Positions 3,001 to 63,888 of a stretch of 64,000 nucleotides of DNA are shown piece by piece. Position 1 is the first letter of the stretch. Every line of letters starts with the position of its first letter. Source of the stretch: Medicago truncatula (lineage: Eukaryota > Streptophyta > Magnoliopsida > Fabales > Fabaceae); NCBI RefSeq assembly GCF_003473485.1, contig NC_053045.1, positions 45,612,494 to 45,676,493 of the forward strand. Direction: 5' to 3'. Both the position numbers and the translations under genes were made by a program. The notes beneath the pieces were generated by a model. That model did not search any database. It was not told where the DNA came from and saw only the letters and a list, made by a program, of their open reading frames with translations.

Positions 3001-4368
3001 TTTCATATTTATAAGCTAGTTCCGCAACTAATTTTACCCAACATTACAAATTCAATTTTACCCCTGTGATCTTAATTGAAAAAAATAGATATTAATCAAA
3101 TGTATATTTTTTATGTCATTTCATATTTATAAGCTAGTTCCGCAACTAATTTTACCCAACATTACAAATTCAATTTGCTAGCTTACTCACTATCATTTAC
3201 AAGGTCGTCCGCTATAAGCTAGTATATCGACTATCTGCTGTTTTTATTACCAAACAGAACCATAATGTAGTTTTAATCATGCCAAACCCAAATCAGATGA
3301 TATAGTTTCCAATGAAATGACAGGGAATAGAAATGACTCAAACTGCATTTTAAGTAACTACACTTAACCTACAAATCTACAAAATCCAAAACACAAAAAA
3401 AGGTCCCTTAGCACGCATAACATCAAAAGTAAGCATAGAGTCAACAGTTTCCTGCACTCAAGGAAGAATCTAAAATTTCACAACATTTTCCCAATCTATC
3501 AATTGGTATTTACATAGGACTGAAGTGACAGTATCCTCATGATCATAATTTTCCATGCAGAGAGCACCAATGCAATAAATAAATCAAATTAAAGGACACA
3601 CAACCTTGAAAGGGATATACGTGAACCCTTGAATGAGTTCCTTATGCTCCTGGAGACTTATAACCTTCCCAAAGGTATCAACAGTAATCCTGAAAGTGCT
3701 GTTAGATTCCAAGTATGGCAACTTTCTCTCATCTGGATAACTCAATATAGAATCCTTCAACTCCTCATAGCTACCCCCTTCACCCCATAGCTCATACATT
3801 CCCTTCACAAGTATACCTACATAATTGCCACCCCACATAAAAAAAATTGAAATTTTTAACAAACCCAATATAAAAAATTAAAAATTTCTACAAACCCATA
3901 AAAAAGATTAAAATTTATACAAACCCACTACAAAAAGTTATAAACTTAAACAAATCCATAATGAAAAATTGAAACTTTAAACAAACCCACTATAAATAGT
4001 TAATAATTTAAACAAACCCACTAAATAAAAATGAAAAATAATTAAAGGGCTAAGCTAAAATAATTGTTCCTTCAAAAAAAAAAAAAAGCTAAAATAATTG
4101 TAGCCATAATCAGAGATTCAGAATGAAGAAAAGGAGAAATTGAAAACTAACTTCGATTAGCAATGTTACGAGCAATTTCTTCTGAAGGGAGATTAACCAA
4201 ATGGAAAGGAGAATCTGGGTGGTGATGAAGAGGGAGCTTCCATTGCAATTGGGGATGAACGTCGTCGTTTTGGTTGTCATCAAAAGCTCCAAACAATTTG
4301 GCTAAAGATTCAACTTCGGGTTTTCTGTAATCCAATAACCTGTGAAAGAAAACACATAGATACCACAT
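1..4368 (-). CDS. TRM11: tRNA (guanine(10)-N2)-methyltransferase, TRM11-type (3' end outside window)
   Basis: Catalytic subunit that methylates G10 of cytosolic tRNAs, acting with a TRM112 partner (family knowledge). Coding exons, all with GT..AG borders and matching phase: 4368-4152, 3816-3605, 2447-2130, 1965-1891, 1721-1647 and 489 to the window edge. About 460 codons are visible, close to the usual family length. The N-terminal exons carry the THUMP-like region (KGMYELWGEG near residue 75). Exon 3 has the SAM-binding motif DPFVGTGS, and exon 6 begins with the catalytic CDPPYG motif. The start is the ATG at 4368, the first Met before a region resembling the family N-terminus. Odd point: in the last exon the family-like frame is lost at a run of five G (complement of 280-284), after LAAKMLVLG; the family-like reading (GRLVFFYPVL, FPEHPCFKL, WLEDGNLHS) continues in a shifted frame to position 1. 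This is either a one-base assembly error or a real truncation. Introns hold a Tourist MITE and a 116-bp tandem duplication. Confidence 0.9.
797..1024. mobile_element. Tourist-like (PIF/Harbinger) MITE
   Basis: A 228-bp element with terminal inverted repeats of about 48 bp starting GGGTGTGTTTGGAT and ending ATCCAAACACACCC, purine-rich on the left and pyrimidine-rich on the right. It is flanked by a TAA duplication at 794-796 and 1025-1027, as PIF/Harbinger elements make. It lies in intron 5 of TRM11. Relatives lie at 46232, 51159 and 32937. Confidence 0.9.
2937..3170. repeat. Tandem duplication of a ~116-bp block in TRM11 intron 2
   Basis: Two direct copies, 2937-3052 and 3053-3170, differ almost only by a 2-bp insertion in the second, so the duplication is recent. 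The surrounding 2750-3260 stretch is rich in the word AGCTTATA on both strands and ends near a phrase reading ACCAAACAGAACC. It looks like a decayed hAT-type MITE, but I could not fix ends or a target-site duplication. Confidence 0.7.
4052..4101 (+). repeat. Micro poly(A) insertion with 16-bp direct repeats
   Basis: The word AAGCTAAAATAATTGT occurs at 4052-4067 and 4086-4101. Between them is an 18-bp insert, TCCTTC followed by twelve A. See the finding on micro-insertions. Confidence 0.75.
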
Positions 4369-4673
4369 GGTTTTGTTGTCTCTTCAGAAATCGAAGAAAC
4401 AAGGTTGAAGTTTGAAGAGCAGAGACAAAAAAAATGGTTTTGGTGGTGCTCCTAAACCCTGTTTCAAAACCCTCGCCGGAACTGGACTTCGGTTTTCTTT
4501 TCCCTCTATCATAGTCTTCAAATTAACCTTCTAGCCGTTGGATTTACATGTTAGAAAAATATGGATGGTATGGATTGAGAGTTTGGCTGGGATTAAGCTT
4601 TCAGAGAAATAAATTTTAAGTGTCCTCTTTGCATATTTTCTACATTAAAAATGTAACCAAAAAATTATTTTCT

Positions 4674-4713
4674 ACATTAAAATACTTTTTTTTTTTTGAC
4701 AAAACATTAAAAT
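4674..4713 (-). repeat. Micro poly(T) insertion with 10-bp direct repeats
   Basis: ACATTAAAAT at 4674-4683 and 4704-4713 flanks a 20-bp insert that on the minus strand reads TTTGTC followed by twelve A and GT. Confidence 0.6.
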
Positions 4714-4891
4714 TCATATTTATCTATTTTTTTGTAACTATTAAAATTTAAATGTATCTTTGTAAAAGAAAAAATATATCTAAATGAGTCATTTTTTTTT
4801 AACATCCGAAAGAATATATATAATCAAACAAGAACTCGTGAGAAAAAAAAATCAAACAAAAACTTTCCAATAAAATAAAAGTCATGCTAAC

Positions 4892-5677
4892 CGGTGGCGT
4901 TGCCAGGATCCCGAGTAAGCGGGTTTAAACTTTTGAACTTTAATTATCAATTGAAATAATATCATAAAAAAAATATATATATACTAAACTCAATTGTATA
5001 TATATATACTTTGCAATTGTCATTTACCCAATTACATGTTCTGAAATCGTTGAACAATCAACTTATTATCAATATTGTCTAACATGTCTCTCAATATAAT
5101 GCACAAGATAATCATTCGTCTATTCATCTTCATTTGATTACATAAATTAGTTTTCCCAACCTTCATAACATAAAAGGGCTATTCGACAATTGTTGTGGTT
5201 ATGAGCAAAATCATTGTTAAGTTCAAAAGTTGATAAACTAATGGATAAATAATACTCCCTTCGTTCCATATTAAGTGACACAGTTGATTCTGTCGTACAT
5301 ACCAATGTATATTTTTTATCTTTAATATCTTAAATCATCTATTAAAAATAATTATGAAAATTTTGCATACTTTTCTAAGAAAAAAGTTATGAATTACACT
5401 TTTCTTTTAGAAGAGTAATGGATGAATTACATTTACTATTAAGTAATATGTATATAGCATTTGTAGTTAACAGATGATCAATTAATAATAAGCAAAGTCG
5501 TCCAAACATGTTACTGCACCCGCACCGCTCGATCCTATGGTTCTATCTTTGAGTTAGGTGGTGCAGATCTCAAATATGAGGGGATTCATAATCACATAAG
5601 ATAGAAAACTTGGTGCAAATCTCACAATTTCAGGGGATGCAGCTGCATCCTCTCAGCTATATGTGGCTCCGCCACTG
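4892..5677. mobile_element. Non-autonomous hAT-type transposon
   Basis: A 786-bp element flanked by a perfect 8-bp target duplication ATGCTAAC (4884-4891 and 5678-5685), the hAT hallmark. The left end reads CGGTGGCGTTGCCAGG; the right end complement reads CAGTGGCGGAGCCACAT, so the short inverted termini match imperfectly. It has no transposase reading frame. Inside, at about 5253, is a half-MITE with a Stowaway-like ACTCCCTTCGTTCC end and no partner end. A truncated relative is at 36891. Confidence 0.85.
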
Positions 5678-5685
5678 ATGCTAAC

Positions 5686-6400
5686 GATCGTCTTTATGAT
5701 ACTTGTTAAAAATCAAATATGACGGTGTTGCATTGAAAATTGTCTGGTCAAATTCTCAAAAGTTTAAAAAATCATCGAAAGTTGTGTGGTCAATTTTTCA
5801 CTGGGACAATCCGAAGTTATAGTTCGAGGGATAATATTATAGAGCATTTGATGTGGTAACCAAAGTCAATCATCTGGCATGTGGCAAAGAGATTCTCAAG
5901 CATCTCATTTCCCATATTGGATATCCAGAACATCCTTCTTTAGATATGTTTTTTATTTGATAGAGATGTCAGGGTGACTTTGATCCAAGTGGAATCTCTG
6001 TACAAGTTTCCTTTGCTCGGATTTAACTTCTCGACTAGCTGTGTTGATTTTGGGGTAATCCTCTTCAGTTCTTCTTTGATCTATTGCTGCCTCGCTACTG
6101 GAAAGGTTGTTATTCTCGACTTGTTGTCTCTCTTGTACGATATGAGTGTCCTTCTTTCTCCCTCCGAATATTACACAAATTTGCTTGAAGGCATATTTTC
6201 ACGGTTGTAACATTTTGTATTTGAGCAAGGCCATTGGCAGCGATGTCGTTTTTACTCTTGAAACCCACGAAGTTCCTCAAAATGTCTCCTATTTGAAGGG
6301 TCAGTTATTTGTAAACTTTGGGAGGCAGACACCATAAGAGAAGACCAAATCCAATATAGTACGACTTATAAGGCCTCTACTGCATCCAAGTCTGTGGGAT
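5686..6400. other. Intergenic, no recognised feature
   Basis: Short open frames only; none has recognisable motifs or gene-like structure. Probably old transposon debris. Confidence 0.4.
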
Positions 6401-7140
6401 TTCCCTTTGGATCAATTTACCTATTCGATGCAAATCTTCTTCAAAAGACATGTGTGTTAGCGATCAATATTGGAAGGTTAAGTGAATGTTGGAACAATCG
6501 AGTGAGGGAACGTGATTCTTTCTTGAGCCCACCAGTTGAGTATGTGGGTGGTAACGATATCATATTGGGTTAAGACAAATCGGGACTATATAATGATGCT
6601 CAAAACCCACGTTTAATGTTTTTGGCGCTACTATCACAAAGAGGAATGAAGCGCGATCATAGTGGATTTGTGTACCAAGGACCATATCAATGAATCATGC
6701 CATGAAAGATGAGACTGACATACGAATATGGGGCTCCGCGATCCCCCTAATAATGGAAACTCGCTCACTGCCCATGAAAATAGTCGTAAAGGCTTCACAC
6801 TATTGGCCATGCCGTTTGGCCAATAAGAATAGTTTTTGCTATAAATACTTAGCTTACACGTTGTAATTAGAATCATCTAGCTGGTCAAACAAACTTATTT
6901 TTCGTTTTATCCGTTTTATCGTTTTGATTATATTTATATTTTATGCATTTCTTAATTGTTTAAAAAAACTAAAAAAAATCGTACTTAACACTCTACTGAA
7001 GAAGTCAAAGAACCCACATCTAAGGGACAAAAGTTCTCTCCTCGACGTCAATCTCTTGAAGAGAATAGAATCACCATTGAGGACATCAGCTTAACCTCAA
7101 CTAAATTCTTGCTCCATCAACAATACCTTAGAGAAGAAAC
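6400..7140 (+). mobile_element. LTR-retroelement fossil (LTR part plus start of internal region)
   Basis: The stretch around 6795-7000 (a GCCATGCCGTTTGGCCA phrase, a TATA-like GCTATAAATACT, then TCGTACTTAACACTCTA) closely parallels 49590-49790, which marks both as copies of one LTR family. Decayed, with no coding capacity; old. Superfamily not determined. Confidence 0.45.
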
Positions 7141-7289
7141 AATTATTCGAAATGCAGTAGCATCTACGACTACCTATTCTTCTTCTTTTTCTTCTTTGCC
7201 TAACCTCTTATGTTTGTTTAACACATGCCCTTGCTGACATGATTGCTCAATTTCATTTTCAATTTCTCAAGTAAGTTAATGCATACTTT

Positions 7290-8500: not shown

Positions 8501-8654
8501 TTGGTGGGAACCTTTTTAATATTTTAGTAAGGCGTCTATTTAACAAATAAGCCGTAGTTAAAATAACTTGTACCTAATATGGAATGCATGTGGCAGAAAT
8601 AGAAAAAAGGAGTTAGCATTCCGCAGCGCACTAACAATAAAAAAATAGTACATA

Positions 8655-8791
8655 TTCCCGTGAGCTTAACTCAGTTGTTAGGGATATCGCATTTTATATG
8701 CAGGGGTCGAAGTTCGAACTCCGAACACTCCACTTCTCCACAAGTAAATTGTGTGAGCTCTAGCCACTAGGCTACTTGACAAAAAAAAAAT
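8655..8791 (+). mobile_element. tRNA-derived SINE, family 1
   Basis: About 137 bp with a pol III box A (GAGCTTAACTCAGTTGTTAG), box B (AGTTCGAACTCC), the tail phrase GCTACTTGAC and an A run. Flanked by a 9-bp target duplication TAGTACATA (8646-8654 and 8792-8800). Same family as 18529, 25480, 28866, 15304(-), 26406(-) and probably 60853. Confidence 0.85.
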
Positions 8792-9058: not shown

Positions 9059-9064
9059 CACGTG
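9059..9064. promoter_or_regulatory. G-box / ABRE-like CACGTG upstream of the RZ-1A-like gene
   Basis: GACACGTGG core lies about 60 bp before the presumed transcribed leader. Such boxes bind bZIP/bHLH factors. RZ-1A is cold-responsive in Arabidopsis, so a stress role is plausible but not shown here. Confidence 0.4.
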
Positions 9065-14760: not shown

Positions 14761-14974
14761 GTGTGTGTATATATTTGCGTGTGTATGAACTATATATTAA
14801 TAAAAATATATCTAAGTATATATATTTTTCTCAAAAATAAAAAATCTAAGTATATATATTTTTGTCTCTCAATCTCACTCTCCTCTCTTATATTTTTTTT
14901 ACCAACTTTCTTCATTTTCATTTTCTCTCATCATTTTCAACTTCATTTTCTCTATTAATTTTCAATTTGATTTT

Positions 14975-15011
14975 ACTAACAAGTTTTTTTTTTTAGAGGA
15001 AACTAACAAGT
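14975..15011 (-). repeat. Micro poly(T) insertion with 10-bp direct repeats
   Basis: ACTAACAAGT at 14975-14984 and 15002-15011 flanks a 17-bp insert that on the minus strand reads TTCCTCT followed by ten A. Confidence 0.6.
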
Positions 15012-17044: not shown

Positions 17045-17086
17045 GTCAAGGAATATCTGTTTAAAAAAAAAAAAGTCAAGGAATAT
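17045..17086 (+). repeat. Micro poly(A) insertion with 12-bp direct repeats
   Basis: GTCAAGGAATAT at 17045-17056 and 17075-17086 flanks an 18-bp insert, CTGTTT followed by twelve A. Confidence 0.65.
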
Positions 17087-18671: not shown

Positions 18672-19630
18672 TTCTTCCTTTTTCATTATTTTTTTCCTTC
18701 CAAATAAATGATACTTGTGATCTATAAGTATCCTTGTTTTGAGACTAAAAAGCAAGGAGGATTTGGTGAGAAAAACACGTTTACAAAATTGAGAGAAGTA
18801 GAAGTTCAAAAGTAAAAGGAAAAAAGTGGTGTTTTGTTTTTTTAACATTTCATAAAAAGTGGTGTTTTTTCTCTCAAAAAAAATAAAAAGTGGTGTTTTT
18901 TTTAACTCCAAATCGATAGAGGTAAGCTTTTACCCGTTTTATGGCTTTCTTTGTTATGGCTTTCTTAACCATGCTTCTTGTTTGTCCTGATCTGGTAATA
19001 ATGTTCTTTGTGTAATATGTGTATTCATTTTGTAAATCGTGTCAATCAAATATCCTAGTTTAGTATTTCTTTTAAAAAAATGTTATTCCATTTGGGACTT
19101 TGGAGGTGTTGATGGTCGATCCTTGATCACGGCGTTCAATCAAACAATTTCGACATTATTCTGTCAATTAAATTAGGATTTACGGATTTTTGAAGATTTA
19201 GATTAATCACTAATTATTATTTTGGCAAAGCTACTGATTTTTATTTAAAAACGTTATTTTGAAATAAAATAAAATAAATAGTTCACCAAAAGGGACTCTT
19301 ACTCTATCAATTTATATTCATATTAGTCATTCATATTTTTCATATATATTTTTTTTCTTTTTTTCTTTTCTTTTTCAACAATATGAAAATATGTTGATGA
19401 CTAAATTAATAACATGTGATAAATATAGAGACCATATTGTTTATTTTTTTTGAAAGAAGAGACCATATTGTTAGTAGGTAGCTAAAATACAGTGAACTAA
19501 TTTATACAAAGTGGGCTGCACCAATTTTCTTTTTTGTTGATAATAAGTGTTTTTCTCTTTATGAAATTGATAATAATCAGTTAAATATCCTCGTTATCCA
19601 TTAATAACTTTTATCTTCTCCATAGAAAAT
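18672..19630. other. Intergenic, upstream of the NHL pseudogene; small repeats only
   Basis: Holds a triple of the 15-mer AAAAAGTGGTGTTTT at 18821, 18854 and 18885, spaced 31-33 bp with A/T-run spacers, and the micro-insertion at 19427. No gene seen. Confidence 0.5.
19427..19472 (-). repeat. Micro poly(T) insertion with 15-bp direct repeats
   Basis: AGAGACCATATTGTT at 19427-19441 and 19458-19472 flanks a 16-bp insert whose minus strand reads TCTTTC followed by eight A and TA. Confidence 0.7.
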
Positions 19631-22742: not shown

Positions 22743-23384
22743 TCAAAGTGAACTATAGCCAACGAATTTGGTTAAGCCAAAGGTAATAGCCATAGCCATC
22801 CAACCTCCAACCACCACTCTAACACAAGACATTTTCACTGATGTTTTACCAAGTATTGCTCCTACACCACCAAACACCAACAATGCAAAACTAGCCATAC
22901 CAACAACAACAAACAACCTTATCTTATAGTCCCTTACCAATGCTGCTCCTAACAATGGAACAGTAGCACCAAATGAAAATGCAATTGCTGATGCAATAGC
23001 AGCTTGAAAAGGATTTGGTAGTAGCTGCTTTTCCTCTTCAACAAAAGTGCTGTTGATTTTGTTCTCTCTTTTCATTTGAGCTACCATTATGTCAAACTGA
23101 GTGTACACTGATACAAACTCTCCAATTCCCATACTACATGCTCCTGCAATTAGTCCTGCAAATCCAGCTAGAAGCATTGTTTTGATGTCTTCATGCACAG
23201 CTCCAACACCTAATATCAATGATGTTATTGATACCAAACCATCATTGGCTCCTAACAAAGCAGCTCTTAGCCATTGTGCTCTTTTGGAATAGTCAATGTT
23301 GTTTTCTTCAGTGTCTTGAGTTTGGTTTTGCTTTGCTTCTATGTCATTAACTTCATTGTTATTATGGTTACCAAGAGAAGCCAT
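22743..23384 (-). CDS. VTL: Vacuolar iron transporter-like protein (VTL / nodulin-21-like), divergent copy 1
   Basis: Single-exon gene, 213 residues from MASLGNHNNN. An upstream in-frame Met at 23462 sits a few bases from the TATA box (23467-23475, TATATAATA on the minus strand), so it is probably not transcribed and the Met at 23384 is preferred. CCC1/VIT1 family: five membrane segments, TM1 with GANDGLVS, TM2 leading to GEFVSVYTQ, TM3 after LPNPFQAA, TM4 with GGVGAILGKT and TM5 with GGWMAMAITFG. The cytosolic metal-binding loop between TM2 and TM3 is short, as in VTL proteins rather than VIT1. Predicted role: iron (possibly manganese) efflux from cytosol into a vacuole or symbiosome-like compartment. 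First of five family members in the window. Confidence 0.92.
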   Translation of the reverse strand: MASLGNHNNNEVNDIEAKQNQTQDTEENNIDYSKRAQWLRAALLGANDGLVSITSLILGVGAVHEDIKTMLLAGFAGLIAGACSMGIGEFVSVYTQFDIMVAQMKRENKINSTFVEEEKQLLPNPFQAAIASAIAFSFGATVPLLGAALVRDYKIRLFVVVGMASFALLVFGGVGAILGKTSVKMSCVRVVVGGWMAMAITFGLTKFVGYSSL

Positions 23385-23582
23385 GAAGTACAAAAATCTT
23401 AAGATACCAAGATTAAAGGAAAATGAGGAAAGGGTTGCATGTAGAAAACACAGTCTCTTCATGGATTATTATATAGAAGTATGATCAAAGTTAGGTAATG
23501 TTGATGATAGTGTTGAGAGCACTTTGAAGTTGGCCACCTCTGAATAATACCTGAAAAATTCAATCCACAATGAATTAACTTC

Positions 23583-25265: not shown

Positions 25266-25479
25266 CATTGTTTACAAAGGGTGATTGTTTTTTATTTTAT
25301 TTTATTACTGTTTCACATTATAATATGTAAATCTTATTCAATTATTTCTCTTGTGCACATTAATTATTGCATCATTTCTTTCTTTAATCCTCTCTTCCTC
25401 TATGTTAGCTATTTTATTTTTATTTACTATTTTTGCATTATTATTTTCTTTTGTTGTTTATGCAAACTGTCATCTTCAT

Positions 25480-25562
25480 GTCCTCGTGAGCTTAACTCGT
25501 TGACGAGGACAATGCATAATATATGTAAGGTCTGAGGTTCAAACCTCGACCACAAAAAAAAA
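25480..25562 (+). mobile_element. tRNA-derived SINE, family 1 (internally short)
   Basis: Starts GTCCTCGTGAGCTTAACTCG, box B GAGGTTCAAACCTC, A-run end. A 16-bp perfect target duplication AAACTGTCATCTTCAT at 25464-25479 and 25563-25578. The usual 3' half (GCCACTAG..CTTGAC) is missing. Confidence 0.85.
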
Positions 25563-25595
25563 AAACTGTCATCTTCATTTTACTAATAGTTTAAA

Positions 25596-26293: not shown

Positions 26294-26337
26294 GATACAC
26301 ATCCATCTTTTTTTTGGTTACTGATACACATCCATCT
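26294..26337 (-). repeat. Micro poly(T) insertion with 15-bp direct repeats
   Basis: GATACACATCCATCT at 26294-26308 and 26323-26337 flanks a 14-bp insert, minus strand AGTAACC plus seven A. Confidence 0.7.
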
Positions 26338-31688: not shown

Positions 31689-31792
31689 CACTTGATTAGA
31701 AGCATGAGTTCTCCACAAGCTCTTAATATCATATTCCAATTTCCTCTTATATTTCAACACTTGATTTATAATTGTACCCTAATTTGTCCTTC

Positions 31793-32467
31793 ATGGCCTC
31801 ACAACTTGGACCAAAAACTATTGGAACCTCACCAAACAATTTCGTGGTTGAGATCCCTATCCATGCTAATAGTTCTCTCAAAGTTGAAAAAGAGAGCAAC
31901 AACATTGATTACTTTCAAAGGGCACAATGGCTTAGAGCAGCCATGTTAGGAGCCAATGATGGACTAATCACCGTTGCATCGTTGATGATTGGTGTTGGAG
32001 CTATAAAAGAAGACATCAAAGTAATGCTCCTAGCTGGTTTCGCTGGTTTAGTAGCGGGTGCTTGTAGCATGGCAATTGGTGAGTTTGTTTCTGTTTATAC
32101 TCAATATGACATTGAGATAGCTCAGATAAAAAGAGAAAGAGAAGCTAATAATAATAACAATGATGATGAAAGTAGTGAAAGGGAGAAATTGCCAAATCCA
32201 TTTCAAGCAGCCCTAGCATCAGCACTTGCATTTTCTATTGGTGCAGTGATGCCATTGCTAGCAGCTGCATTTATAAAGAATCACAAAACCAGAATGGGTG
32301 TTGTTGCTGCTGTGGTTAGCTTTGCATTGTTGGTGTTTGGAGGAGTTGGTGCATTGGTTGGAAAAACTCCTTTGATGAGGTCTTGTGTTAGAGTTCTTAT
32401 TGGAGGTTGGATGGCTATGGCCATTACTTTTGGTTTCACTAAATTGATTGGCAATACTGGACTTTGA
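31793..32467 (+). CDS. VTL: Vacuolar iron transporter-like protein, near-identical copy A
   Basis: Single exon, 224 residues, start MASQLGPKTIG; the seven codons upstream of it in frame begin with TTG, not ATG. CCC1/VIT1 fold with five membrane segments: RAQWLRAAMLGANDGLITVA (TM1), GEFVSVYTQYDIEIAQIKRE after TM2, a short acidic/Asn-rich loop (NNNNNDDESSERE), NPFQAALASALAFSIGAV (TM3), FALLVFGGVGALVGKT (TM4) and GGWMAMAITFGFTKL (TM5). The conserved Asp of GANDG and Glu of GEFVS are present. Predicted to load iron into a vacuole-type or symbiosome compartment. A nucleotide-level copy of B (38862) and C (42316, inverted) from about codon 21 onward; the first 20 codons differ. An overlapping upstream frame beginning MSSPQALN at 31704 is shared with B. 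Confidence 0.93.
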   Translation: MASQLGPKTIGTSPNNFVVEIPIHANSSLKVEKESNNIDYFQRAQWLRAAMLGANDGLITVASLMIGVGAIKEDIKVMLLAGFAGLVAGACSMAIGEFVSVYTQYDIEIAQIKREREANNNNNDDESSEREKLPNPFQAALASALAFSIGAVMPLLAAAFIKNHKTRMGVVAAVVSFALLVFGGVGALVGKTPLMRSCVRVLIGGWMAMAITFGFTKLIGNTGL

Positions 32468-38520: not shown

Positions 38521-38861
38521 GAAGTTCCCGACTTGTATAGATTACATTATGGTGGAATATATGAGATTTGGATAAACTTTTGGGTTATGAATTTTTAAAT
38601 GAAAAACAAGAACTATTAATTAAAAAATTGTCACCAACTTGTAGAGCTAGTGCCATCCGCACTACCTCCTTTCTCCTTTATCAATAATAATTTATTTATG
38701 TGACAATATACACTATATCTAAAGTTAATTAATCATATCCCTCTCTAGCTATAAATATAGTTCATTAGAAGCATGAGTTCTCCACAAGCTCTTAATATCA
38801 TATTCCAATTTCCTCTTATATTTCAACACTTGATTTATAATTGTACCCTAATTTGTCCTTC

Positions 38862-39536
38862 ATGGCCTCACAAATTGGAGCAAGAACTAATGGGATCTCA
38901 CCAAACAATTTCGAGGTTGAGATCCCTATCCATGCTAATAGTTCTCTCAAAGTTGAAAAAGAGAGCAACAACATTGATTACTTTCAAAGGGCACAATGGC
39001 TTAGAGCAGCCATGTTAGGAGCCAATGATGGACTAATCACCGTTGCATCGTTGATGATTGGTGTTGGAGCTATAAAAGAAGACATCAAAGTAATGCTCCT
39101 AGCTGGTTTCGCTGGTTTAGTAGCTGGTGCTTGTAGCATGGCAATTGGTGAGTTTGTTTCTGTTTATACTCAATATGACATTGAGATAGCTCAGATAAAA
39201 AGAGAAAGAGAAGCTAATAATAATAACAATGATGATGAAAGTAGTGAAAGGGAGAAATTGCCAAATCCATTTCAAGCAGCCCTAGCATCAGCACTTGCAT
39301 TTTCTATTGGTGCAGTGATGCCATTGCTAGCAGCTGCATTTATAAAGAATCACAAAACCAGAATGGGTGTTGTTGCTGCTGTGGTTAGCTTTGCATTGTT
39401 GGTGTTTGGAGGAGTTGGTGCATTGGTTGGAAAAACTCCTTTGATGAGGTCTTGTGTTAGAGTTCTTATTGGAGGTTGGATGGCTATGGCCATTACTTTT
39501 GGTTTCACTAAATTGATTGGCAATACTGGACTTTGA
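38862..39536 (+). CDS. VTL: Vacuolar iron transporter-like protein, near-identical copy B
   Basis: Single exon, 224 residues, start MASQIGARTNGIS. From residue 21 (EVEIPIHANSS) to the stop the protein is identical to copy A, and the DNA differs at very few positions (for example a GCT versus GCG Ala codon before GACSMAIGEF). The first 20 codons differ from copy A at about seven residues. Membrane layout and predicted iron-transport role as for copy A. The TATA box is at 38750-38757. An overlapping upstream frame (MSSPQALN, 38773) is kept open across the CDS start as in copy A, but its ATG is so near the TATA box that it may not be transcribed. Confidence 0.93.
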   Translation: MASQIGARTNGISPNNFEVEIPIHANSSLKVEKESNNIDYFQRAQWLRAAMLGANDGLITVASLMIGVGAIKEDIKVMLLAGFAGLVAGACSMAIGEFVSVYTQYDIEIAQIKREREANNNNNDDESSEREKLPNPFQAALASALAFSIGAVMPLLAAAFIKNHKTRMGVVAAVVSFALLVFGGVGALVGKTPLMRSCVRVLIGGWMAMAITFGFTKLIGNTGL

Positions 39537-41124: not shown

Positions 41125-41641
41125 TTTTGTTTATGAAACTAATTGTATACCACGAACTAAAATATTGTTAATTAAAGAGTGCATTTTTTTTTTTAATCAG
41201 CAAATTTTATTAAAATTCAGATCTCTATTCAAGATGAATAGAGATCGGTGAAATAGAAAATACAAACGAAAGACGCTCTATAAAATAATACATTTCTTTA
41301 TAGTTACGTTTTACTAGGAACATGAAGGAGATAAGGTATAAACAAACAAAGATGAAGAGATAAAGATAACATAAAAATCTTCTTCAAATAAAAAAGATAA
41401 CATAAAAACCTTGGATATAATATTGCACAAAGTAGCCACGACAAACACAAATTAAATTCAGTAAAGAAAAACAAAGACAGTTCTGATCAATAATATTACA
41501 GGGGTCGGAGTAATAACGTCATATGGTGGTTTGAAGGAGTAACATGATAAGAAGGTCACGAGTTCAATTTTCCCACAAACAAAAATAACAACTAAGGACT
41601 AACATTTATCATGAAATAAAACGATAACACTATTAAAGTGA

Positions 41642-42316
41642 TCAAAGTCCAGTGGTGCCAATCAATTTGGTGAAACCAAAAGTAATGGCCATAGCCATCC
41701 AACCTCCAATAAGAACTCTAACACAAGACCTCATCAAAGGAGTTTTTCCAACCAATGCACCAACTCCTCCAAACACCAACAATGCAAAGCTAACCACAGC
41801 AGCAACAACACCCATTCTGGTTTTGTGATTCTTTATAAATGCAGCTGCTAGCAATGGCATCACTGCACCAATAGAAAATGCAAGTGCTGATGCTAGGGCT
41901 GCTTGAAATGGATTTGGCAATTTCTCCCTTTCACTACTTTCATCATCATTGTTATTATTATTAGCTTCTCTTTCTCTTTTTATCTGAGCTATCTCAATGT
42001 CATATTGAGTATAAACAGAAACAAACTCACCAATTGCCATGCTACAAGCACCCGCTACTAAACCAGCGAAACCAGCTAGGAGCATTACTTTGATGTCTTC
42101 TTTTATAGCTCCAACACCAATCATCAACGACGCAACGGTGATTAGTCCATCATTGGCTCCTAACATGGCTGCTCTAAGCCATTGTGCCCTTTGAAAGTAA
42201 TCAATGTTGTTGCTCTCTTTTTCAACTTTGAGAGAACTATTAGCATGGATAGGGATCTCAACCTCGAAATTGTTTGGTGAGCTTCCAATAGTTTTTGTTC
42301 CAAGTTGTGAGGCCAT
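41642..42316 (-). CDS. VTL: Vacuolar iron transporter-like protein, near-identical copy C (inverted)
   Basis: Single exon, 224 residues, start MASQLGTKTIGSS. Same protein as copies A and B from residue 21 on, except GTTGL instead of GNTGL at the C-terminus. The N-terminus and the 3' flank (CACTTTAATA.TGTTATCGTT) are closer to copy A, so A and C form the most recent pair, now in opposite orientation. TATA box at 42428-42435. The upstream ATG present in A and B (AGCATGAGTTCTCC) is ATA here. Function as for copy A. Confidence 0.93.
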   Translation of the reverse strand: MASQLGTKTIGSSPNNFEVEIPIHANSSLKVEKESNNIDYFQRAQWLRAAMLGANDGLITVASLMIGVGAIKEDIKVMLLAGFAGLVAGACSMAIGEFVSVYTQYDIEIAQIKREREANNNNNDDESSEREKLPNPFQAALASALAFSIGAVMPLLAAAFIKNHKTRMGVVAAVVSFALLVFGGVGALVGKTPLMRSCVRVLIGGWMAMAITFGFTKLIGTTGL

Positions 42317-42639
42317 GAAGGACAAATTAGGGTACAATTATAAATCACAAGTGTTGAAATAGAAAGAAAGAGGAAATTGGAATATGATATTAAGAGCTTG
42401 TGGAGAACTTATGCTTCTAATGAAGGGTATTTATAGCCAGAGAGGGGATATGATATTATGATTAATCAACTTTGGTTATAGTTTATATTAATTGTCACTT
42501 AAATTAATATTGATAGAAAGGAGAGGAGGTGGTGAAGAGAGCACTATCTACTAGTTGGTGGCAATTTTCTTAATTAATAACTTTGGTTCACCGGTTAAAA
42601 ATTCGTAACCTAAAAGTGGATCCAAATCTCATATGTTCC

Positions 42640-45117: not shown

Positions 45118-45174
45118 AGTTATGATAACTGTTTTTTTTTTTTTTTTGGTCAGGAGTTATGATAACTGTTTTTT
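45118..45174 (-). repeat. Micro poly(T) insertion with 14-20 bp direct repeats
   Basis: AGTTATGATAACTG plus T run at 45118 and 45155. The insert on the minus strand reads CCTGACC then about 16 A, closely resembling the last bases of SINE family 1 (CTACCTGAC plus A run). Confidence 0.75.
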
Positions 45175-47357: not shown

Positions 47358-48065
47358 TCAAATTTCCAAATCCAAACCACTACAATGTGCAAGTAATTTG
47401 GTTAACCCAAAAGTGATAGCCATAGCCATCCATCCACCAAGAAGGAACCTAATAGAAGATTTTACCTTTGGTGTTTTACCAAGCATAGCACCAACACCTC
47501 CAAACACAACCAAAGCCAAACTAGCTATTGCCATAATCGCAATAATCCTAATCTTATAAACTCTTATAAATGAACCACTAAGTAAAGGAACCAAACCACC
47601 AATAGAAAATGAGAATGCAGAAGCTGCAGCAGCTTGCAATGGATTAGGCAATGATCTTCTTTTCTCCAACTCAATCTCCAATTCTTTCTCTTTTCTATCA
47701 CTTGTTCCTAAATCTCTCATCATTTGACCAATTTCAACTTCATATTGTGTGTACACAGAAACAAATTCTCCTATTGCCATACCACATGCTCCTGCAATTA
47801 ATCCCGCAAAACCCGCGACTAACATTGTTGCACTGTCTGTTTTAACAGCTCCTACACCCATCATTAGTGAAGCAACAGAAACTAATCCATCATTAGCTCC
47901 TAATACGGCTGCGCGAAGCCATTGAGCCCTTTGCCAATAATCAATATCTGAAGTTTTACAATTTTCTTTGATTTTTATTTGCTTTTCTTCCATTTCCTTT
48001 GTAGGATTTGGAATTGTGATTACTTTGTTTAGTGACTCAGAATCACATATTGTACCAACGGCCAT
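47358..48065 (-). CDS. VTL: Vacuolar iron transporter-like protein, divergent copy 5
   Basis: Single exon, 235 residues, start MAVGTICDSESLN; a TATA box (TATAAATAA) lies about 130 bp upstream. Same five-segment CCC1/VIT1 layout: RAQWLRAAVLGANDGLVSVA, GEFVSVYTQYEVEIGQMM, a charged loop (SDRKEKELEIELEKRRSLP), NPLQAAAASAFSFSIGGL, GGVGAMLGKT, GGWMAMAITFGLTKLL and a short extra tail (HCSGLDLEI). More divergent than copies A-C, with a longer N-terminus and a charged loop likely to form a helix. Predicted iron transport into an intracellular compartment. It closes the VTL cluster on the right. Confidence 0.92.
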   Translation of the reverse strand: MAVGTICDSESLNKVITIPNPTKEMEEKQIKIKENCKTSDIDYWQRAQWLRAAVLGANDGLVSVASLMMGVGAVKTDSATMLVAGFAGLIAGACGMAIGEFVSVYTQYEVEIGQMMRDLGTSDRKEKELEIELEKRRSLPNPLQAAAASAFSFSIGGLVPLLSGSFIRVYKIRIIAIMAIASLALVVFGGVGAMLGKTPKVKSSIRFLLGGWMAMAITFGLTKLLAHCSGLDLEI

Positions 48066-48209: not shown

Positions 48210-49100
48210 GCATTTGGTAAAAATGAAAATATATGGTTTGGATATTTCGAAGGGGCAAAGGAAAAAAATTAATAACCTGGCGTCACGTATAAAATGGCAA
48301 TCACTAGATACATTTTTTTGTATCATGGGATATTTTTTTATTAAGTATATTTAATGCGACCTTAATAAAAATGTATTCAATAATAAAATGTAAGAGTATT
48401 TTAAAAAATTATAGATTAATCTTCATATAGTATACTTCAAGGACAAATTAAATCCCAGGTAGTACAATCTGTAAATAAAAGAAAATAAACAATTTCGTCA
48501 ATGACCTTTCATGATAGTTAAAATATTTATACAGTATACATAGGCCAACGTGAATGGGCAAAAAAGATGGTAAACTATGTAATATTTATTTTTCGAGGGG
48601 GTAAACTATGTAGTTGTGGAGTATGGAATTGTGAATGGGCCAAAAAAAGTTTAATTTGTGCAGCTTAATTAATTAGATTTATTTATACACAAGGCATCAT
48701 GTATTTTAGATTAGAATATTATATTCTGCAAATCATTGGAGTTGGACTTAGATCTCAACGAAATGTCCTAATTGAAGGGTTCGTAAAGGTTCAAAAGATC
48801 AATTTCAGTTGGTTTATGCGGTCGCACCGAGGATTAGTCTCAAGTCAAAAGAGACGAAAGTGTGAGTATATCCCAAAGGAGGGCAGAAAGTCCAGCTTAC
48901 TATATGTTCGTTTTTCCTCAAAAAGAAAATAGCGGGTTTCCAACTAATTGAAAAAAAGCACACCACTCCATTTCACATTTTTTTTAAACGGTCAATATTA
49001 GTAATTAATTGTTATATATTTTATATATAAAAATAATTATTATATTAGTTGAAATCGGCAAATATGCAATTTAAGAATAAAAGATATTTTTTTCGGACGA
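48210..49100. other. Intergenic, upstream of VTL copy 5
   Basis: AT-rich; no gene. Holds the micro-insertion at 48569. Confidence 0.4.
48569..48612 (-). repeat. Micro insertion with 13-bp direct repeats
   Basis: GGTAAACTATGTA at 48569-48581 and 48600-48612 flanks an 18-bp insert; minus strand CCCTCG then an A-rich run. Confidence 0.6.
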
Positions 49101-49118
49101 TAGAATGTTAGGGGAGCA

Positions 49119-49259
49119 GTCTCATAAGTCATAGCTCAACTGGCAAAAATGCTGAAATTGTTAGACCGGACGTCATGATCGGGGGTTCGAACCTCGATTC
49201 CTCCACTTTGTGTGTGTGAGTTTATGATGGCTTTGTCATCTCTTCTATCTACAAAAAAA
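49119..49259 (+). mobile_element. tRNA-derived SINE, family 3
   Basis: Box A CATAGCTCAACTGGC, box B GGGTTCGAACCTCG, A-run end. A 15-bp perfect target duplication AATGTTAGGGGAGCA (49104-49118 and 49260-49274). Different body from the SINE at 8655. Confidence 0.88.
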
Positions 49260-49289
49260 AATGTTAGGGGAGCATTATTGCAACCGGAC

Positions 49290-50629: not shown

Positions 50630-53600
50630 CTAGGCCTCAATCTTTGTTTCTTCTGTTTTTGGCTTCTCTTCTTGACCCTTTACTTCCTCAGTCTTAGGTT
50701 CTTCTTCCTTAGGTTCAGCCTTCACTTCCTCAGCGTCAGCCTTGCCTTCTTCTGGCTTCTTTGCCTCCTCCACATTCTACAATATAGAAGTGGTATTATT
50801 AGGAGAATGCGATGGTTTATGGGAATTATTGAAATTAGACAAGCCAAACACGAAGAAAATAAAATAAAGGAAATGCTAACAAATTTCTTTAGAATACTTA
50901 TTAAGACAATTAAAGTGACAATGTTATCTTAAAATTGACATGTTCAATACATTGAAACTTTAAAATGTAATTTTTTTTATCAAACTTATCAACTATTTTC
51001 TTTTAAATCATTATCAAGTACTTTTAAGACATTTGTTAACATGATCTATAATATAAATAAGGATATTTTCTGTTATTTATTTATAAGAGAAATTTTTTAA
51101 GTTCATAACAAAAATTGAGGGTGGCCCAAACATAAGGCATGTCAAGCCCTTACTTTAAGGGTGTGTTTGGATTGAGAGTTTAGGAGGAGAAAGGAGGGTA
51201 GAGTTCACTTTTAATTTTTAAATTACGAACAACATAAAATATTTTTTAGAATAAATTAAGTGTTTTTGAAGTGTTATATAATCATTTATCATGTTGTTAA
51301 TTCAATTTTCTAAAAATCATTTCATAATGTCCATAATTTAAAAAAGAAAAGGAAGCCCTCCCCTCCCTTCCCCTTTTAAATCCTCCATCCAAACACACCC
51401 TAAGAAAATTGTTCTTTTCCCTTTCAAAATTGCTCATTCCCTTGATACAACGGAAGTTAACTCACGTTCAACATTTTTCAGCGGTAGTTAACTCACATTG
51501 ACATTTTTTAGATCAGTTCAATCGCATTTTAAGTTGGGTCAACCATTCTTAAAAGTGTCAGCGTGAGTTAGCTACTGCTGAAAAATGTCGTGAGTTAACT
51601 TCCGTGGTCGCAAAATTTAGTGACGGAATTAGAGAGGGATTTCACGTTTTCCCTCACTAAATTTTCCTCATTATTTTTTGATTTTTTAGTAGTGCATGTA
51701 CAAGGTGTACCAGGAAAGAACCAGAGTCACAGACATATGTACAAAGAAAAATAGTAAAACCGAAACAAGGTACACAGAGAAAGAAACATTAACCGATGCC
51801 CAACATAGTGAACGGACTAAGCCACCAAGCAATTATTTATTTCAATCAAAAATAATTATACATACTATAAAATAAAAATACAAAAAATAAATATCAATTT
51901 ATGAAAAGATGAATGTACAATAAAATTCATGTCTCTTTTTGTTAATATGTTTTATTTTCTAAAAGTAACAAATTTTAATTACAGTACATATTCCTTCCTT
52001 AAAAAAAAGTACATATATAATCGATACATTTTTAACTTTCTTACCAAAAAAATGCTTAGTTTATTTTTGTATAATATAATTTTTATGGCATTATTTCTTA
52101 CATTTTTTTCTTGAAAAAGGACACATCCGCTTTGTTAGACCTCGTTTTAATGTTCGGTTTAGACTTACATTGTGTTGGGTCGGCTATACTAAAACTACAG
52201 GATTTTGTCAAGCTAGTTCTATATGTTTTCAATGTTATAAAATAATCCTAATGTTATTTATAACAAATCTTAAACCATATGTTAATAAAGTCTGCGGTTT
52301 GTGATATCTACTTATCGTTTTAGCAAGGATAAACTATCTTTCAAATGAGTGACTTCATAAGTTTACCATAAGATTATGTTATCAACTCTCCCAATACTAA
52401 TACCAGTATGTTATTTGTGTTTTCATTTTTAGGAAATATTTGTATATTACTTGTTATTAACTAAAGAGCATTGCTATTTATCTAAAGAGTTTTCATCAAG
52501 AATTTATCAAGAAAATGCCACACAACCAATTAAATTTGTTATTTGACGAAAGTCAAAGGAAATAATGATGTGTAATTAAGGAAAAGTGTTAACAAATACA
52601 TTGTCTTGAAATTTTTTTGATAAATTTTGTCACTCTATCTATCATTTCCTTTAATTAAATTAAATACAATACATGCGTTACATTATTTACTAATTGTTAT
52701 TAAACTCATCATAAATTGTATAGAAAAGGTTTATAAATTTTACCAAATGACAAATTATTTAAGAGAACCCGAATTTGATTCATCACAAATACCAACAAAT
52801 GAATAGGAGGGTTAAAAAAAAAAAAACTCATCACAAATACCAACGGATCAACCTAACTATCATTTATTTTTTTAGATAACAAAAACCTAACCATTAGTAC
52901 CATTTTACAATTTCGATGATCATTTTACAAAAACCTAATCATCACAAATACCAAGAGGTGGATCAACCTAACTATCATTTGTTTTTTTAGATAACAAAAA
53001 CCTAACCATTAGTACCATTTTACAATTTCCGTGATCATTTTACAAAAACCTAATCATCACAAATACCAACAGGTGGATCAACCTAACTATCATTTGTTTT
53101 TTTAGATAACAAAAACCTAACCATTAGTACCATTTTACAATTTCCGTGATCATTTTACAAAAACCTAATCATCACAAATACCAACAGGTGGATCAACCTA
53201 ACTATCATTTGTTTTTTTAGATAACAAAAACCTAACCATTAGTACCATTTTACAATTGCCGTGATCATTTTATGATGTATTATGGGGGAGTTGAGATCCT
53301 CTCCATTTAAGCCCTCTCAATTTTTTCTATTTAAAAAGATAGAGACATAGAGAAATTGAAAAGATTCTCACTCACTATAGGGAGCTAAACTCATTAGGTT
53401 CAACAATTTTAAAGATAAAATTAAACATTTACACTTTTTAAAACAATAAACTATTTCAAACTAATTAATTTTCAAAGAAAAAATATTACCTCATTGAGCA
53501 AGGTGTTTAGAGATTTGTTATCTTCAACAGGGGTCTCCTCTGTTGCACCAACCTTAACCTCCTCAGTTATAGGTACAGGCGCCGGCTCAGGCACAGACAC

Positions 53601-53829: not shown

Positions 53830-54600
53830 TTTGGATACTATTAAAAAAGACAGTTTGATTTTGGATTATTGTGTTCCTAAATCTTAATGGCTAACAAAAT
53901 TTTGAGGAGGCCAAAAGTTGATATTACCGTAAAAAATCATTGCTTAATTTAGCAATGGATTATAAACCATTTTTTTATTGTATGGAAATTTTTTACAGGC
54001 TCTGATTGGAGTCAATAAACCGATCTTTTGTTTTTTAAGGATTAAAATAAAATAAAATAACCACATGTTGTTTTTATTAATATATAGTAATAGACAAAAA
54101 CAGATTCTATGCTTTTTGTGTCCTCTTTTGCTTTTTGTGTGTTCTGTAGTAATTAATCAAAAATATATTAATGTACTAGTTATTACTAATATTTTTGCAA
54201 TTAAATACACATGAAGTCACTTGCACGCAAGTAACACGGGCTTTTTGTTTTGCACAAGGGGCAAAATTCTTATCGAACTTCTGGTGCATTGCAAAGCTAA
54301 TTTAACCCCATCCCCATGTGGTAACATTACGATACTTAAAATTAATTTGTTAACTTAAATATATTCTACAAGAATTAAAATACTTCTTATAGTAAACCCT
54401 GATGGCTAATTAAGTACTTCATGAGAATTAGCATACAGAGATATTTTTGTTACAAAGTAAAAACATATCACTCATTGAGATTTGACCCTTTTTTCCTTTT
54501 TGTTGAGTATGAGATTTGACCCTTTGTAAAACAATAAATTTTCTTCATTGATTACTTGTTATTAAAACAGAATAATGTTTGTATACTTTTGTTTTAAGGA
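53830..54600. other. Intergenic, upstream of the MGNC gene
   Basis: AT-rich; no gene or mobile element recognised. Confidence 0.4.
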
Positions 54601-59373: not shown

Positions 59374-59399
59374 CTTCAAGATCAGGCTGCAATAAGCTT

Positions 59400-60430: not shown

Positions 60431-60449
60431 AAAAATAGAAATTGTTATT

Positions 60450-60631
60450 TTTTTTATTTTTTTTTTGGTGTACAAGCCTAAAGCAAAACAGAAAAAAAGA
60501 GAAAAGAAAAAAGCGAGCTATTCTCTCAAAAAGAAAATTCCAACTGCATCACTATGGAGGAGACTTTGGAGGTTTATCGGGGGAGACTCATGTCGAAGGA
60601 ACTCTACATCAGAAGAGGCACCAAGCTTGGC
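60450..60631 (-). mobile_element. 5'-truncated LINE (3' end), minus strand
   Basis: The complement ends GCTTTAGGCTTGTACACC plus a long A-rich tail, a plant L1 3'-UTR phrase. A 16-bp perfect target duplication AATAGAAATTGTTATT (60434-60449 and 60632-60647). About 182 bp. Confidence 0.8.
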
Positions 60632-60852
60632 AATAGAAATTGTTATTGAAAACAACAACTTTTACTTTTAAATAGTTAAATATACCACTTTTCACAATTT
60701 TGTATTAATTTCCTTAATTAATACCACATGGACACTCTTTAGCATTTACTTAAAAATATTTGACACTAATTATAACGTCTAAAATCAAAAAATAATTCAA
60801 AATTTCAATTTATTTTAAAGTAAATATAACGTTTATAAAAGTCATCATAAGT

Positions 60853-60968
60853 TAAACTCACTTGGCAGGAACATTTGTATAATATATTGAAGGATCTGGG
60901 TTCAAACACCTCACATATTTGTCGTATAAAGGTGAATTTCTTGTCATTATGATACTTGACAAAAAAAA
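60853..60968 (+). mobile_element. Decayed SINE, family 1
   Basis: TAAACTCACTTGGCAGGAAC, box-B-like GGGTTCAAACACC and the tail GATACTTGAC plus A run. No clear target duplication. Confidence 0.5.
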
Positions 60969-61264
60969 TTATAGGAAATGTTTTTTTTCATGACAATGAT
61001 TAAAAAAATTATAGGAAATATTACAGAGTGTTCTTAAGACATTGTTTAAAAAAATAGAAATATTGTGTCGAGGAATAGTGAAAAATGATGAATTCTACTT
61101 TTTAAAAGTAAAAAATTGTTTATTCTAATATAAAACTACTACATTTAATTTCCTTAACAAGTATCATAAGGACATTGGTTAGCATAAATAAAAAATTATA
61201 TAGTCTAAAATAAATAACAAGATATTTAATGATTCAATGTCAGGTACCAGTAATTGGATTGGGT

Positions 61265-61521
61265 CCGGCTCTTCGAGGAGTTGTTATCTTTTTCTTTGAC
61301 TTGTTCCTTGGCTGTGTTTTTAGTTGATGCTGTAGTTTTGTTGTATTTATCTTCTCTATTTTCTTGGAGTACCTTCGATACACTGAGCCTGGCGGCGTGT
61401 GTTTGCCCTCAATATCTCTGGTGCTTTGTGTTAAGTGACCTTTTTCTCTGTACTTTTTGGGACTTGGCTCCTCCTTTATGTATATATATATATATTTCTA
61501 CTTTGCCATTAAAAAAAAAAA
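61265..61521 (+). mobile_element. 5'-truncated LINE (3' end)
   Basis: A 257-bp insert ending TTTGCCATT plus twelve A, flanked by a 16-bp duplication with one mismatch (AGTAATTGRATTGGGT, 61249-61264 and 61522-61537). Contains a TA microsatellite (61480-61495). Confidence 0.8.
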
Positions 61522-62052
61522 AGTAATTGAATTGGGTGATGAAGTTCCTTGCTAGTTGATTTGTTGGCAACGATCACAAGTGTTCATATAATAGAAGCTC
61601 TGAAGAAATTAAGGGTGTGGAGATTTAAGAGAAGTTGAAGGATTGTATGGGTAATGTTTTTATAAAGAGAGTAATGAATACTATTTCGGGTATATTATTG
61701 GTGTCTTCTAAAAAAAGTGCATTATTGATGTGATTGAAGGGCTGCCGTTGCCGAAATAGAAATTTTAGAGATATAGTCAGAGGGTGATGGTGTGCAATTG
61801 TAACGTGCTACATGCAGGCATTTAGGACGAAAATGTTCCATCAATAAGTGACGGAAATATCTTTGGTTGGTCCACATAAATGAACTATAAACTATAATTC
61901 ATAAACATAAAATTTATATCTATAATCATCAAGCATAAAGTTGATCCCAAATGTTTGTGACCCTCATTTAAATGGTTTTTAATAAGTGTTAGTAGCTAGT
62001 TCTGTTGTTTGGCAGCTTAATTTCTTTGGTTTAAAAGCAAAGCTTTAACTAG

Positions 62053-62097
62053 ATGTTTATAGTGTTTTTTTTTTTTTTTTGGGAAAATGTTTATAGT
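62053..62097 (-). repeat. Micro poly(T) insertion with 11-bp direct repeats
   Basis: ATGTTTATAGT at 62053-62063 and 62087-62097 flanks a 23-bp insert; minus strand TTTTCCC then fifteen A. Confidence 0.7.
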
Positions 62098-62644
62098 TCC
62101 TTTTCTTTGCTTCTTAGGAATAGTCTTGACTTGCTTTCTCTGGTGTAACATTTATCTGTATAGGGTTCGACCTTCTCATATCTTTATTGTTTTCTTTTGC
62201 CTTTATAAAAAAACAAAAAATAAAGTTGATCATCAAAATAATTAAACTACATTAAAATTTTAAAATAATGATCAATTTTTCTTGGAACTATGTCACATTT
62301 GGATGTAGAAAGGATCTCTTATTCATCTCTTTCACTCTCACAAGGTTTCCGCTTAAAAATAATTATCAATGTTCTTCAAGAAATCTACATAATTGCATAA
62401 GTCAAAAGCAATCTAACAAAAAAAAAACTAAGTCAAATATAAAAGATTCAATTAAGCAAATTCAACGTGAATCTTTTAAAACTACTACATACATAGAAAT
62501 CTTTTATATTTGAATTAAGCCAATTCTGTAGGATTAATCAAGAATATGAAAATATAATTACAATCTTAAAATTCAATATTACTTATTCAATAAGTCAAAC
62601 AAGTATAAATTAAACAAGTATAGAAACAAGTGCAAGAACAGATA

Positions 62645-63099
62645 TCCAGGCGGATGGGGATGTCCACAGCAGTCCCTTCGTGTATGGGGGATCATTTTAA
62701 TCAATTCAATTTCGTTGGTGGAGCCGTTAAGGCTCGCTGATCAATTCTTCAGGTTTTTTGATTTGCAACTGCGTGGAAAATTTGAAAATAAACAAATAAC
62801 AGAATCTTCAAAGGCAAATAATGTACAGTTGTTCAGATGGTTGATAACATTAAGTCGCTCACTTTCTTATGGTTGAAAAAGAAATTTCCTTCTCTTCCCT
62901 TCAATTACCATGGTTGGTGGCTTAGTCCTTTCACCATTTTGGGCATTGGTTAATTGTTATTTGCATTCTTTTGTGTTGCCTTTTATTTTTCGTTGTAAAT
63001 ACTGATGTAACTTTTGGTGTTCTTCATTGGCATTCCTTGTGCTAGGGAGGACCTTTTGCAGTGGTCATATATCTCATTTTAACCTCTTCAAAAAAAAAA
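62645..63099 (+). mobile_element. 5'-truncated LINE (ORF2 C-terminus and 3' UTR)
   Basis: Translates IKSLTFLWLKKKFPSLPF then NYHGWWLSPFTILGIG, the characteristic end of plant L1 ORF2; a 3' UTR and A run follow. A 17-bp duplication with two mismatches (AAGTRCAAGAACAKATA) at 62628-62644 and 63100-63116. Confidence 0.85.
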
Positions 63100-63362
63100 A
63101 AGTACAAGAACATATAGGATAAAACAAACATAAATATAAAAAAGGGTTTCTGAAAGACACATAAAGCGAGAAGATGGAGAACAAAAAACGTGAATCGTAA
63201 AAGAAATTCCATTTGAGTGATAACTAGAGAGTGAGGAAAAACGTTTTAGCGTGCCGTTTTAATGACCCAAATTAATGGGAAGCGTGAATTTTTTTAGATT
63301 GGTAGGAAAGTCAATATTAAATCAGTTAAATGGGGAACTAGTCTAAAACGTAGGATTTGATT

Positions 63363-63752
63363 ACAACAACAACAACCAAACCTTATCCAGTTATCTCATT
63401 AAGCGGGGTCGGCTATATAGATCAAATTATGTCATAGTGTTCTATCATAAACCAAATCTGGATCCAACTCATTGACCTCCAAATCCTTTCTAATGGTTTC
63501 TCTAATAGTTTTCCTAGGTATTCATCTACCTCTTTTAAATTGACTCTCATCCATTTGATCTACTCTACTTACAACGATATTTACGGGTCGTCTATCTACA
63601 TGCCCAAACCATCTAAGCCTATTTTCTACCGACTTTTCTACTATAGGTGCTACCCCTTACTCTCTCTAATGGTATCATTCATAATTCTATCATGTCTAGT
63701 CTTACCACTCATCCAGCGCAACATTCTCATCTCTCCTACACTTACTAGAACT
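63363..63752 (-). mobile_element. RTE-clade LINE, 3' end, minus strand
   Basis: The minus-strand frame has RRMRMLRWMSGKTRHDRI, RLRWFGHVDRRPV and PRKTIRETI, the hallmark end of plant RTE reverse transcriptase; after a stop it ends in a (GTT)n-type tail with the phrase GCCGACCCCGCTTAATGAGA. A 12-bp perfect duplication TAGGATTTGATT (63351-63362 and 63753-63764). Confidence 0.9.
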
Positions 63753-63837
63753 TAGGATTTGATTGTGGTAATTTTTTTTAAAGGTGTCTGTGTGCAATTG
63801 AAGGTGCCTTAAAAAATTATTTGCCAATTTGTAGTAT

Positions 63838-63888
63838 AGTTTAAGGATTTTTTTTCTTTTCTTTTCAATGTAGTAAAGTTTAAGGATT
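63838..63888 (-). repeat. Small T-rich insertion with 12-bp direct repeats
   Basis: AGTTTAAGGATT at 63838-63849 and 63877-63888 flanks a 27-bp T-rich insert. Confidence 0.5.

Follow-up and report, generated by a model that had tools for sequence, protein, structure and literature searches.

Insertions that retain little more than a poly(A) tail are scattered through a 64,000-nucleotide (nt) stretch of the Medicago truncatula genome (G000:C4:45612494-45676493; hereafter the window), which belongs to an assembly of 429.9 Mb in 42 contigs. Each of these insertions, which we call stubs, follows the order direct repeat, body of a few nucleotides, A run, same direct repeat, and the repeats are taken as target-site duplications (TSDs). 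A sequence-only reading of the window had listed eleven such sites and one related triple; every one was read individually, the window was scanned for exact direct repeats, and all were found where they had been placed. Bodies of 6-7 nt had been ascribed to them, which holds for nine of the eleven; it fails for 52780-52844, where the body has 17 nt, and for 63838-63888, where TTG is followed by a mixed A/G tail.

Results

Poly(A) stubs in the window

Two of the nine stubs with bodies of 6-7 nt lie on the forward strand, at 4052..4101 (TSD AAGCTAAAATAATTGT, 16 bp; body TCCTTC; A14) and 17045..17086 (TSD 12 bp; body CTGTTT; A12). The other seven lie on the reverse strand, at 14975..15011 (TSD 10 bp; TTCCTCT; A11), 19427..19472 (15 bp; TCTTTC; A8), 26294..26337 (15 bp; AGTAACC; A8), 45118..45174 (20 bp; CCTGACC; A16), 62053..62097 (11 bp; TTTCCC; A16, then C), 48569..48612 (13 bp; CCCTCG), whose interrupted A tail has a longest run of only 5 and so falls outside the counted set, and 4674..4713 (10 bp; TTTGTC; A12), the weakest of the nine, with GT between tail and repeat. 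The insertion at 52780..52844 (+; TSD 17 bp; A13, then C) borders a tandem array, and the stub at 63838-63888 extends to 63830..63888 (-), with a 20-bp TSD that includes one mismatch. We read the triple as two oppositely oriented insertions: a stub at 18852..18901 (+; TSD 19 bp; CTCTC; A8) and a second insertion at 18821..18868 (-; TSD 15 bp; body ATGAAATGTT; A7, then C).

The earlier list was incomplete. Probable stubs of like design lie at 14810..14863 (+; AT-rich TSD of 20 bp; CTC; interrupted A tail), 51983..52016 (+; TSD 9 bp; body TCCTTCCTT; A8) and 54476..54525 (-; TSD 16 bp; TACTC; A-rich tail), as does an insertion at 60962..61019 (-; TSD 18 bp; body AATCATTGTCATG, 13 nt; A8, then C). 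Another probable stub, at 4634..4682 (+; TSD 17 bp; body ATGTAACC; A6), overlaps the one at 4674..4713, and weaker candidates occur at 4822, 35522, 41362 and 62398. Triple repeats at both 4634-4713 and 18821-18901 appear to stem from two stub-like insertions, on opposite strands, into one short target. In several insertions one additional C separates the A tail from the second copy of the target (62053-62097, 52780-52844, 60962-61019 and, at locus L004, 7049-7110).

As yardsticks, the window holds copies of two families of short interspersed elements (SINEs), F2 at 25464..25578 (+; 16-bp TSD) and F3 at 49104..49274 (+; 15-bp TSD). An Rfam search of the window returned nothing at gathering scores. 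The tandem array, of units of about 115 bp, spans 52780-53255, and its left edge bears the poly(A) insertion with the 17-nt body. The window also contains five related open reading frames (ORFs) of 231-239 amino acids, three of them near identical, at 22743-23462, 31772-32467, 38841-39536, 41642-42337 and 47358-48065, which we take to be a local cluster of VIT/nodulin-21-type membrane transporters.

Abundance and polarity of the stubs

Stubs were counted as a repeat, a body of at most 60 nt, an A run of at least 7 and the same repeat, with the run adjoining the second copy. In the window, repeats of at least 10 bp occurred at 14 of 171 A runs, corresponding to 13 places (the runs at 61002-61008 on the forward and 60981-60988 on the reverse strand are a single place read on both strands). 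The mirror image of this frame occurred at 0 of 170, first-order shuffles gave a mean of 0.075 (maximum 1 in 40 runs), and random re-pairing of left and right flanks gave 0.36 (200 runs). A 324-kb sample, made up of the window and 26 regions of 10 kb (ten from C1, ten from C2, two from C3 and one each from C5-C8), yielded repeats of at least 12 bp at 25 of 718 A runs, as against 2 of 716 mirrored runs and 0.28 after re-pairing (maximum 2 in 100); the 25 include at least one, at L012 5305, that lies inside a tandem array. A scan against shuffled sequence had been proposed with the sequence-only reading; real counts were far above the mirrored, re-paired and shuffled ones in the window, and far above the mirrored and re-paired ones in the sample. 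The A tail lies at the 3' junction, adjoining the second target duplication.

Such polarity bears on a rival origin of the stubs, in which staggered breaks are mended with filler DNA, or tandem slippage occurs, and an A run is present by chance. Filler repair is described for plants in those parts of the literature that were available. It is disfavored here, because it predicts no strand polarity (14 against 0 in the window) and because the bodies lack an excess of matches to their own flanks: 11 of 26 bodies shared a 5-mer with their own flank, compared with 10.0 expected from the flanks of others, which also led us to reject local templating of the body. The nick sites described below speak against it as well, and we regard this explanation as very improbable.

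Nick sites, target duplications and an empty site

Nick sites and TSDs were analyzed in 33 stubs found via two body words. The nick reads Y|AA in 27 of the 33, compared with a background of 5.6% among positions of the sample; the leading A's of the target are partly ambiguous with the tail, the letters of the left copy being the target's own. TSDs measured 9-25 bp with a median of 16, in a search that requires at least 9; about 7-20 bp is expected of products of L1-type machinery. A filled site at L004 7049-7110 has a paralogous, 89% identical counterpart at L004 9265-9427 in which the 19-bp target occurs once and the 24-nt insert is absent. Comparison of 40 joined flanks with the sampled sequence produced no further convincing empty site, and two short matches (84% and 75% identical) were left uncounted.

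Taken together, the polarity, the Y|AA nick, the median TSD of 16 bp and the empty site fit target-primed reverse transcription (TPRT) by the machinery of L1-type long interspersed elements (LINEs), and not filler repair. As far as sequence can show, the stubs are products of TPRT, the origin that the sequence-only reading had proposed for them, and the first-strand nick that it suggested examining lies, as expected of L1-type products, at a T|A-rich site. An L1-type LINE enzyme, with its endonuclease and reverse transcriptase, is a candidate agent by analogy of these marks.

Length and composition of the bodies

From the 324 kb we curated a set of 45 insertions, excluding by hand ten stretches, mostly tandem or AT-rich arrays; this set covers the real orientation only and has no mirror counterpart. 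By script, 26 bodies were 5-9 nt long, 18 were 10-24 nt, one was 0 and none was 1-4 nt. The script measures the body up to the last unbroken A run, and trimming interrupted tails by eye brings some of the long bodies to 6-7 nt. Among repeats of at least 13 bp in 264 kb, there were no bodies of 0-4 nt, eleven of 5-8, six of 9-24, none of 25-59 and twenty-four of 60-1499, the last class being partly due to chance since its mirror yielded ten.

The 26 short bodies are rich in pyrimidines (T 0.43, C 0.30, A 0.18, G 0.09). When 31 bodies were compared with the listed ends of repeats, only CCTGACC and TGCTTC equaled whole SINE or LINE-like 3' ends; TCCCT and CGTGAG occur within SINE 5' ends. We rejected the idea that stub bodies generally match SINE ends, the shuffles giving an unconvincing 0.064 for 3' and 0.048 for 5' ends with both bodies and reference ends chosen by hand. 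The comparison of bodies with SINE and LINE 3' ends that had been suggested with the sequence-only reading thus gave no convincing excess over chance.

SINE F1 and its stubs

The body at 45118 can be traced: as had been recognized, CCTGACC corresponds to the terminal 7 nt of SINE family F1, whose reference copy (L013:3217-3388) ends GCCACTAGGCTACCTGACC-An. There are 96 places with CCTGACC followed by A12 and 1 with the reversed pattern. Of these, 60 loci were fetched in list order, with the window and L013 excluded, and proved to comprise 35 with an F1 tail, 18 strict stubs in which the repeat adjoins the word, and 7 others (judged by eye, probable stubs at L032, L042 and L149, deleted or different SINEs at L047 and L064, and unclear cases at L034 and L144). 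Twelve of the strict stubs have exactly CCTGACC as their body, one has CTGACC and five have one extra letter, so that all bodies are of 6-8 nt under a rule that admits 5-9. Among the 35 copies with an F1 tail, 33 align back to position 15-36 of 128, which is about the limit of the fetched stretch; at L031, L051 and L143 the alignment is in more than one piece or has a gap. L147 matches F1 via its last 20 nt only, and L045, cut to 26 nt, is the sole copy between stub and long.

The sampled F1 copies are either long or about 7 nt, with stubs making up about one third of A12-tailed F1 copies. Judged by the descent of the body, F1 is the only case that appears to represent an early stop on a longer RNA.

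SINE F3 and the position of a possible stop

SINE F3 terminates in TCTATCTAC-An, and a hairpin is predicted in its copies at a distance of 12 nt from the tail. We located ATCTAC-A12 at 140 places (27 for the reversed pattern), and the first 32 loci contained 14 F3 copies by eye or 12 by script, L115 and L118 falling below the script's cut; one copy, L152, is cut to 30 nt. No clear F3 stub was present among the 32 loci, L121 being doubtful. The ratio of stubs to copies is 18:34 for F1 vs. 0:14 for F3 (p = 0.007, Fisher's test; about 0.01 with 0:12, by hand), in a comparison chosen after seeing the data. Given this result, neither a 7-nt ruler that applies universally nor a simple halt at the 3' hairpin accounts for the stubs; we rejected both, and any universal stop is improbable.

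Judged by eye, both partial SINE copies, L045 (F1) and L152 (F3), start a short distance upstream of the predicted 3' hairpin. Four further loci (L114, L117, L119 and L159) carry another repeat ending ...GATCGGCCATATCTAC-An, L159 being slightly different upstream.

These results bear on the idea that any LINE or SINE copy may be aborted early at random, or truncated at its 5' end, which is the cause that the sequence-only reading had in mind when it described reverse transcription cut off almost at once. The two partial SINE copies are of the kind that such a process would leave, and according to PMC3219598 a human poly(T) insertion may be an Alu, L1 or pseudogene that was severely truncated. 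However, random abort predicts a smooth distribution of lengths, which is absent from our samples: bodies at repeats of at least 13 bp are concentrated at 5-8 nt with none at 0-4 or 25-59, F1 copies fall into a long and an approximately 7-nt class with one intermediate, and F3 has no clear stubs. As a general account the proposal is not supported, and we consider it improbable.

Pyrimidine words and the source RNA

TCTCTC-A12 is more frequent still, at 486 places vs. 49 for the reversed pattern. From 100 listed places on C1 and C2 we picked 40 by hand and excluded L082 and L083. In 24 of the remaining 38 loci a repeat ends at or near the word, with a body of at most 12 nt (4-12 nt in 22; at L069 and L100 the repeat itself includes the pyrimidines), and in 11 of these 24 the body is exactly TCTCTC. 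At L102 and L084, repeats enclose unique bodies of 14 and 42 nt, and the last 12 have no counted repeat, although L106 by eye has one with a gap. No two of the 38 loci had a longer stretch next to the word in common, the best pair (L075 and L109, neither called a stub) agreeing at 15 of 20 letters. In the longer bodies the letters upstream of the word vary, which makes one single source RNA doubtful. As candidate sources, 7SL RNA was rejected for TCTCTC and 5S rRNA for TCCCT, the one copy of each that was read having the 3' ends GAACCACCAC-TTTTT and GCACCTCT-TTTT, respectively. Most of the 7SL (Plant_SRP) matches, 22 of 28, lie in one cluster (G000:C1:16150711-16235207), many of them about 1.7-1.8 kb apart.

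For the pyrimidine words alone, the template might have been pure poly(A), with the body arising from untemplated purines added to the cDNA, which would appear as pyrimidines on the top strand. The composition of the 26 bodies agrees with such addition, as do TCTCTC loci that share no longer body apart from the one look-alike pair. The identity of CCTGACC with a SINE end does not, nor do the SINE copies in L013, at 25464 and at 49104, which start with GTC directly after the duplication and show no added letters. We regard untemplated addition as quite unlikely.

A tiny template is somewhat easier to accept, but still unlikely: RNA decay or a precise cut would leave 5-8 nt and the poly(A), and the enzyme would simply run to the end of the RNA. 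This would explain the sharp ends of the bodies (CCTGACC in 12 of 18, TCTCTC in 11 of 24) and the absence of recognized longer relatives of TCTCTC, but it requires a cut at one point in the F1 RNA and none in F3.

Discussion

The reading that we favor is that the stubs are probably retroposition products of plant LINE machinery acting on other polyadenylated RNAs. On this reading the enzyme would prime normally on the A tail, copy a few nucleotides and then come off the template at a preferred point dictated by the RNA, and the short cDNA would be joined as usual. Its departure might be caused by RNA structure, or by pyrimidine-rich RNA paired to purine DNA, which forms a weak hybrid. A more specific and tentative possibility, which we hold to be clearly less likely, is that the plant LINE reverse transcriptase makes a sequence-dependent early exit from certain RNAs, at one fixed point 5-8 nt past the A tail and in a large share of attempts.

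Several observations weigh against the favored reading. The 32 F3 loci lack clear stubs, including the 12-nt stubs expected from a plain hairpin stop, and a LINE-like 3' end, ATTTTARCYTCTTC-An (four loci and one variant, named a LINE by eye), likewise gave no stub in the sample. The source RNA of TCTCTC or TCCCT was not found, 7SL and 5S rRNA ending differently. The empty site is single and paralogous. Trimming by eye leaves two or three bodies shorter than 5 nt (CTC at 14810, TTG at 63830 and CTTC at 41362). Finally, a score that tolerates mismatches separates real from mirrored frames less well (71 vs. 31 at score 13), many of the mirror matches lying in AT-rich or repeated stretches; our claim is based on exact repeats and not on that score.

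The closest case that we found is the human NF1 poly(T) insertion (PMC3219598), which resembles the stubs in having an A tail and almost no body and is attributed to L1 endonuclease-dependent insertion. NF1 is one case, whereas the Medicago stubs are frequent, peak at bodies of 5-9 nt and have a fixed end for one SINE. In Arabidopsis, 5'-truncated copies of Sadhu elements were called consistent with abortive retrotransposition (PMC2848041); like the stubs, Sadhu is a plant system with poly(A), duplications of 7-16 bp and a thymine before adenines at the nick, and a similar nick pattern is cited there for Arabidopsis SINEs. Partial Sadhu copies, however, align to a known element, whereas stubs retain only a few nucleotides. 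The plant tRNA-type SINEs with (A)n tails, among which PMC3747384 places MT_SINE-1 to -3 of M. truncatula, share with the stubs the tail, the duplication and a presumed LINE partner, and CCTGACC is the end of F1; the stubs differ in that promoter and body are gone, and our F1-F3 were named independently of the published MT_SINE sequences. In the open-access literature we found no report of such insertions as an abundant class whose body is short and fixed.

Should the early exit prove correct, the genome would carry tens of thousands of exit marks (a naive extrapolation from the 26 curated short bodies in 324 kb, and not a count), recording the RNAs that were seized in the germ line. If the pattern is general, the stubs would form a countable record of retroposition attempts, one that is expected to escape annotation of elements by their bodies, and the two-peaked lengths of F1 would give direct access to the point at which a LINE reverse transcriptase releases its template, and to the reason. 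The stubs would, in addition, steadily supply small poly(A)-bearing insertions.

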